From assembly GCF_000787395.1 (NCBI RefSeq), contig NZ_JRAA01000002.1:62001-126000 (forward strand): a stretch of 64,000 nt of DNA, in the 5' to 3' direction. Position 1 is the first letter of the stretch. Each line of letters starts with the position of its first letter. A model generated the notes under the pieces. It had not been told where the DNA came from, did not search any database, and worked only from the letters and a program-made list of their open reading frames with translations. This document shows positions 25,215 to 25,341 of the stretch, piece by piece. Both the position numbers and the translations under genes were made by a program. The DNA is from Solemya velum gill symbiont (lineage in GTDB: Bacteria; Pseudomonadota; Gammaproteobacteria; Chromatiales; Chromatiaceae).

Positions 25215-25244
25215 TTGACTTTTCGAAAGCACCTATATTAGTAT
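25215..25244 (+). promoter_or_regulatory. Sigma70-type promoter for the candidate sRNA
   Basis: -35 TTGACT at 25215-25220 and -10 TAGTAT at 25239-25244 with 18 bases between. A start near 25250 would fall right at the first stem-loop of the candidate RNA. Confidence 0.6.
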
Positions 25245-25249
25245 ATCTG

Positions 25250-25341
25250 CATACGCTAATCCTCCTCCTTTAAATTAGCGTATATTCCTCCATCCTTCTT
25301 ATGGTGGTTTTTTGGCGCGGTATCTTACCGCGCCTTTTTTT
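25250..25341 (+). ncRNA. Candidate small RNA with C-rich loop and intrinsic terminator
   Basis: About 92 nt between divergent tgt and the 3' end of prfC, with no open frame. Stem-loop 1 (25251-25283) has perfect 10-bp arms ATACGCTAAT/ATTAGCGTAT and a 13-nt loop starting CCTCCTCC. Stem-loop 2 (25287-25307) has arms CCTCCAT/ATGGTGG with one T-T mismatch and a loop CCTTCTT. Stem-loop 3 (25314-25334), GGCGCGGTA/TACCGCGCC followed by seven T, is a strong terminator. The CCUCC sequence is complementary to Shine-Dalgarno sites, so a trans-acting translational regulator is a reasonable guess. Not matched to a named family. Confidence 0.7.

Follow-up and report, generated by a model that had tools for sequence, protein, structure and literature searches.

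The plus strand of the window (the whole stretch of 64,000 nucleotides of DNA that was analysed) carries, at 25215-25341 between tgt and prfC, what most probably is the gene of a trans-acting anti-Shine-Dalgarno (anti-SD) small RNA (sRNA) of about 97 nt, which would have its own sigma-70-type promoter and intrinsic terminator, would be the gammaproteobacterial counterpart of the Rfam family RF02278 and would pair with GGAGG-type ribosome-binding sites (RBSs), probably with Hfq, lowering translation. We give this reading a probability of roughly 0.78. An anti-SD sRNA had already been proposed at this place in an earlier note, and it is still the best prediction, considering that a covariance model built from relatives recognizes the window copy (E 3.9e-15) and that these relatives covary.

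The candidate gene is flanked by tgt (24102-25202, minus strand; TIGR00430, 568.7 bits) and prfC (25401-26987, minus strand; TIGR00503, 860.1 bits). Its putative promoter (25215-25244) consists of TTGACT at 25215-25220, an 18-base spacer and TAGTAT at 25239-25244, with both hexamers as the earlier note had described them, and the likely transcript runs on the plus strand from 25245, a 5' end placed by the -10 position, to 25341, a 3' end placed by the T-run. By consensus alone this promoter is not beyond chance, since three promoter-like sites were found at 24800-25700 when 1.4 were expected. Its recurrence in relatives nevertheless supports it as a predicted promoter: a similar block, defined as TTGAC followed 11-16 bases after the hexamer by a TATTAG-like hexamer, lies upstream of 76 of 132 distinct copies (those left among the matches listed once duplicates and locus-edge copies were removed), compared to 0.38 in base-shuffled upstream sequence, a contrast that is flattered because the hexamer list was compiled after the sequences had been inspected. 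The block is present in 29 of the 35 listed copies adjoining tgt or queA, and in the window the TATTAG block itself (25236-25241) is overlapped by the putative promoter. In another 18 of the 132 listed copies, no TTGAC/TTAAC and no TATTAG-like block was seen upstream, and some of these may be made from mRNA 3' ends.

The first element of the likely transcript is hairpin 1 (25251-25283), identified from sequence, fold and covariation in relatives: 25251-25260 pairs with 25274-25283 at 10 of 10 positions, giving the perfect 10-bp stem that had been described (z -7.3 by itself), and the loop CCUCCUCCUUUAA (25261-25273) holds the anti-SD octamer UCCUCCUU (25263-25270), which we take to be close to the 16S rRNA tail. 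It is followed at 25285-25308 by the sequence UUCCUCCAUCCUUCUUAUGGUGGU, which comparison with relatives marks as a diverged form of the core of the branch (CUCCUCCAUCCUCCUUUGGUGG). The second stem with a pyrimidine loop that had been expected there is present, pairing 25287-25293 with 25301-25307 around the loop CCUUCUU, but it is weak: it contains a single U-U mismatch and is unremarkable by itself, with a z of -1.6 and 10 of 200 shuffles equally good. The intrinsic terminator (25314-25341), supported by a terminator scan, fold and covariation, is as strong as had been claimed, with a 9-bp G+C-rich stem (25314-25322 with 25326-25334) and a T7 tract at 25335-25341; three terminator-like sites were found at 24800-25700 when 0.8 were expected. 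In such sRNAs the intrinsic terminator is also the usual place of Hfq binding. The fold of the entire 127-nt stretch has a z of -5.4 and that of the likely transcript a z of -7.9, with none of 200 shuffles equally stable in either case. The supposed lack of coding potential held on the plus strand apart from a single 20-aa frame (25301-25363) running through the terminator, the only frame of at least 20 aa that touches the span.

The T-run follows the terminator hairpin on the plus strand only, whereas both neighbours, prfC and tgt, are encoded on the minus strand. It is therefore very improbable that these structures serve as a minus-strand leader or attenuator, with a AAGGAGGATGGAGGA-like sequence as RBS, or as a plain terminator hairpin of a neighbouring gene. 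GGAGG is indeed abundant on the minus strand, as a leader of that kind would have it, but the orientation of the element relative to its neighbours differs between loci.

Relatives of the candidate sRNA are widespread. A DNA similarity search of 92 genomes gave matches in 15, the window's own among them, that for the most part covered the 3' half, and most of these matches displayed, upstream, a promoter block and a hairpin of divergent sequence, together with the core CTCCTCCATCCTCCTTTGGTGG and a GCGCGG-type terminator, L003 and L015 being different. The core TCCTCCATCCTCCTTTGGTGG is common to the relatives, and a pattern scan of named genomes, in which the pattern fixes the core by construction, returned at least 117 stretches. 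The names of these point to Gammaproteobacteria (Chromatiales, Thiotrichales, Sedimenticola, Thioalkalivibrio, Arenicella and Acidiferrobacteraceae, among others, with some entries named just Gammaproteobacteria bacterium), the exceptions among the listed names being a Gallionellaceae (L067), two entries named Proteobacteria bacterium (L135 and L140), one named Bacterium (L120) and one named endosymbiont (L130). The covariance search in relatives that the earlier note had suggested gave matches with two models. Model R2, made from 41 copies with the window left out, matches 25244-25338 with 63.6 bits (E 3.9e-15), while its next best match within the window has an E of 0.22 under a rough calibration. 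Model R1, which has the window among its rows, has matches at E<=0.01 in 107 of the 274 genomes drawn from the GTDB class and in 93 of the 236 that are well assembled. The GTDB class Gammaproteobacteria also takes in the former betaproteobacteria. A different 5' domain precedes the core in five copies (L015, L020, L030, L047 and L098): a long variable stem that closes on a conserved GGCCAAAGGCAGTATCG-AGTAGTGTCGG-like stretch and that has no Rfam match at gathering score.

The alignments argue for a structured RNA. Their 42 and 41 rows (with and without the window) were hand-picked from the 132 copies for an alignable hairpin 1, so many copies in which no 5' hairpin or promoter stood out are omitted. 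In the 41 copies without the window, 14 of 23 pairs changed on both sides compared to 6.8 in shuffles, and in the 42 copies including it 14 of 24 compared to 7.6, which are counts and not probabilities because the shuffles do not keep relatedness. Paired cells amounted to 96.9% in the 41 rows, against at most 48.2% with slid partners. The compensatory changes that the earlier note had proposed to look for in stem 1 were found at 8 of 9 pairs in these 41 relatives, including copies in the tgt-queA arrangement; the terminator stem had two-sided changes at 6 of 9 pairs. Hairpin 2 is invariant in the 41 rows, for most of which the core is fixed by the pattern, so that its helix is neither backed nor contradicted. 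Among the loci found with covariance models (44 distinct, 40 of them located), CCTCCATCCTCCTTTGGTGG was exact in 23 and carried small insertions or substitutions in the rest; an earlier count had used 49 loci, not all distinct, and the fixed search place of the repeat missed 4 of the 44. Overall, it is the base-paired parts that vary, the CU-rich core being nearly constant, and, judging by sequence comparison, what the branch conserves is the region surrounding the second hairpin, UCCUCCAUCCUCCUUUGGUGG, and not the stem-1 loop.

Against this background the window copy is peculiar. The octamer UCCUCCUU forms the hairpin-2 loop in the gammaproteobacterial branch, and only the window copy, 1 of the 132 listed, has it upstream of the core in the hairpin-1 loop, the CCUCCUCC loop being peculiar to this copy. 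Its own hairpin-2 loop is changed to CCTTCTT, with a T seen in 1 of the 132 listed copies and an extra A seen in 5. Runs of at least five consecutive C upstream of the core exist in 15 of the 132 listed copies, several Thioalkalivibrio among them. We infer that the main pairing site of the window copy may have shifted from hairpin 2 to hairpin 1, a loop switch that rests on one genome. The same genome has a second copy (G000:C1:1213760-1213830), cut by a contig end, with an intact canonical core and next to a ubiK-like frame. These two facts, the rare core changes of the window copy and the intact core of its paralogue, are what one would expect if the ubiK-side copy did the work and the window copy were on its way out. 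Such decay is nonetheless unlikely, because the window copy keeps its promoter block, its perfect 10-bp stem 1 and its strong terminator, and because the change in its core is accompanied by the octamer in loop 1. A functional sRNA thus remains the preferred reading. Going further, we tentatively consider that it might be one of several paralogous mimics of the 16S tail across many sulfur-oxidising Gammaproteobacteria, in which paralogues would place the octamer differently behind a kept promoter and terminator frame and would split the mRNAs with strong SD sequences between them, the window octamer on loop 1 then acting as a second, independently tunable translation brake; this idea is possible, but we would not bet on it.

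In the single congener examined, a copy has on one side a 2Fe-2S-ferredoxin-like gene, whose 74.6 bits fall short of the curated cut-off of 150, and on the other a ubiK-like gene (above the cut-off of PF04380; 94.5 bits with the NCBIfam UbiK model compared to its 100). The ubiK-like frame is common to this copy and to the second copy of the window genome. In this congener's assembly, tgt was looked for and not found.

The loci of the relatives also bear on how the RNA might act. Flanking genes were taken as the nearest open frames of at least 70 aa within 3 kb and were clustered by BLAST; from every cluster that received a name, one member was checked or read. Among the 132 flank-typed copies listed, 35 adjoin tgt and/or queA (19 between both, 8 by each alone), so queA takes the place of prfC in 19 of the 27 tgt-side copies, and prfC is a neighbour in the window copy only. 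Another 33 of the listed copies adjoin rplM, five of them with a coq7-like gene on the opposite side, and 7 of the 132 adjoin coq7, a gene read from sequence and confirmed once (L171). All 27 tgt-side copies have tgt on the opposite strand, and in the window the sRNA promoter begins at a distance of 13 bases from the start codon of tgt, so the 5' leader of tgt would lie antisense to the sRNA gene. Both observations would suit a cis-antisense regulator opposite the tgt leader (in the queA-tgt gap of relatives), acting mainly on that operon through a duplex or through transcription interference. We consider this quite unlikely, since the core is also found by rplM, in the same direction in all 33 cases, and at other loci, and since it is the paired parts that vary while the CU-rich core stays nearly constant. 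Hairpin, core and terminator, in turn, follow one another in the same strand order at different loci, though the orientation of the neighbours varies. These patterns are more in line with the trans-acting sRNA that we favour. In the window, an IS30-like transposase lies on one side of tgt-prfC (20739-21701) and phage-like genes (repressor-like and transglycosylase-like) on the other (27244-31194), which may account for a neighbour other than queA there; a tRNA gene is found at 23066-23138 on the minus strand (RF00005, 69.6 bits).

The earlier note could not match the RNA to a named family, which no longer holds: it can be tied to RF02278 and to its relative S17. Since the Rfam scan at gathering score gave no match at 25215-25341 in the window, this link came from sub-threshold matches and bridging sequences. 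RF02278 (Betaproteobacteria_toxic_sRNA) covers the double-hairpin RNAs ncS03/05/27/62 of Burkholderia cenocepacia and has in common with the window RNA a CU-rich stretch, a CCUCC hairpin, a terminator hairpin and several copies per genome. The window copy has the CU-rich segment and the two hairpins, the second being an intrinsic terminator, and aligns end-to-end to model positions 1-64, but it differs by a shorter and mismatched hairpin 2, by a conserved extra 5' hairpin and by being gammaproteobacterial. With 30.7 bits it stays below the cut-off of 50, so we call it a gammaproteobacterial variant and not a member of RF02278. None of the 57 genomes of the window's GTDB family passed this cut-off (best 40.4 bits). 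Two copies with the exact gammaproteobacterial core did, in L067 (Gallionellaceae; 51.8 bits) and L135 (50.5 bits), while the remaining 15 of the 17 loci scanned gave no RF02278 match at that cut-off.

At E<=0.001, RF02278 matched 93 places in 83 of the 274 class genomes and none of 14 control genomes (at E<=1 it also matches in 8 of the 14). Of these 93 places, 76 coincide with R1 places and 17 do not; RF02278 in turn matches at 51 of the 60 best R1 places. Conversely, R2 finds two RF02278 members that are over the cut-off (E 2.4e-5 and 4.6e-5). In the draw of 274 genomes, the two places that pass the cut-off adjoin OsmC and COQ7 genes, and some gammaproteobacterial copies sit between coq7 and rplM. 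Because of these model overlaps, the bridging copies and the shared coq7 neighbourhood, the gammaproteobacterial branch and RF02278 are taken, on sequence grounds, as one family by common descent.

Other known RNAs were also compared. S17/S17S of Bordetella pertussis, which was compared by its published description, has, like the candidate here, its own promoter and terminator as well as CU-rich sites complementary to RBSs, and it adjoins coq7, as do the seven copies above (PMC11722255, available part). According to the same source it is cut by RNase E from a 190-nt precursor to 67 nt, whereas the gammaproteobacterial copies seem to begin just before the compact 5' hairpin; ncS27 is likewise described with an extra 5' part that processing can remove (PMC5688073, available part). 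The likeness to sX13 of Xanthomonas that the earlier note had drawn is apt for the way of working, as C-rich loops of sX13 pair with G-rich motifs near translation starts, but not for identity: sX13 is set apart by the accessible description of its 4C/5C loops, its polA locus and its Hfq independence (PMC3771888), the window locus being tgt-prfC and its loop CCUCCUCCUUUAA. Two further candidates were dropped: anti-hemB (RF02837; 32.2 bits over a short stretch, E 4e-6, below its cut-off of 49.5), which shares a CCUCC loop, three hairpins and a terminator but by its name is antisense to hemB in Burkholderia, unlike the window RNA, and PrrF (RF00444; 35.3 bits compared to a gathering score of 90).

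By analogy, transcription, Hfq binding, SD pairing and repression can be inferred for the window RNA, which should act like S17 and ncS27 because of its kinship with them and its own anti-SD stretches. It would be transcribed from its sigma-70-type promoter up to the intrinsic terminator; its CU-rich stretches predicted to be single-stranded (the loop CCUCCUCCUUUAA and the linker UUCCUCC) resemble the anti-SD end of 16S rRNA and would pair, probably with Hfq, with GGAGG-type RBSs in a set of mRNAs, whose translation would then be lowered. The window genome has an hfq gene (105.4 bits). S17 is reported to be processed by RNase E and to depend on Hfq; without it 92 genes are raised, of which 70 have complementary sites at the RBS or close to it, and in a reporter it represses BP2158 directly (PMC11722255). 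Overexpression of ncS27 slows growth (PMC5688073, available part), but toxicity is not general, since E. coli overexpressing S17 showed only a modest growth defect, on entry into stationary phase (PMC11722255). For the double-hairpin RNAs, 55-80% of predicted pairings are around gene starts according to the accessible texts (PMC5688073, PMC10987360).

Potential targets were evaluated by duplex energies in a sample of 333 start regions and 333 coding stretches from 464 kb, which is 17% of the genome. The loop-1 segment reached -14 kcal/mol or lower in 14 start regions compared to 3 coding stretches, a contrast that is unspecific because any anti-SD sequence would give the same and because the choice of starts by the script leaned towards those with a good SD. 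The contrasts for the hairpin-2 segment (28 and 20 of 333 at -14; 4 and 5 at -17) and for the canonical core (43 and 26 of 333 at -14; 11 and 8 at -17), start regions first, are weak. Searches at start codons with long patterns gave no convincing complement: TAAAGGAGGAGGA with one mismatch had three matches, one being the sRNA gene itself, compared to five for the reversed control, and AAGGAGGATGGAGGA with two mismatches had six, two being sRNA genes, compared to one. One of the AAGGAGGATGGAGGA matches (L202) precedes by 15 bases a possible GTG start that falls within a longer frame, and a match near hfq was rejected, being inside the upstream reading frame and not at the hfq start. In the 17% sample, the start regions predicted to pair most strongly with the sRNA or with the core of its paralogue are at L208 8738-10101, L213 16191-18035, L222 449-2464, L224 12031-13431 and L225 7537-8439; by their protein starts, several look like respiratory-chain genes, as leads without statistics.

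The predicted mechanism is ordinary; the breadth of the family and the loop arrangement are new. A 2020 paper describes, in its available part, the RF02278 family as exclusively betaproteobacterial (PMC7011215), and no gammaproteobacterial account of it was found in the open-access literature. The present analysis extends the family to many Gammaproteobacteria by name and to the 107 GTDB-class genomes found with R1, and it suggests that the Rfam family be rebuilt with gammaproteobacterial sequences. With its nearly constant core, variable hairpins and recurring loci (queA-tgt, rplM and coq7-rplM), the branch lends itself to a comparative search for real targets, and the window copy provides a natural variant with the pairing motif on another loop.

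Tandem sRNA units, two or three in succession and about 100-155 bases apart, were also observed at L086 5783-6024, G317:C3 217943-218301, G232:C27 1117-1333, G200:C83 5204-5426 and G124:C80 34125-34361, the pattern scan finding three tandem copies in one record.
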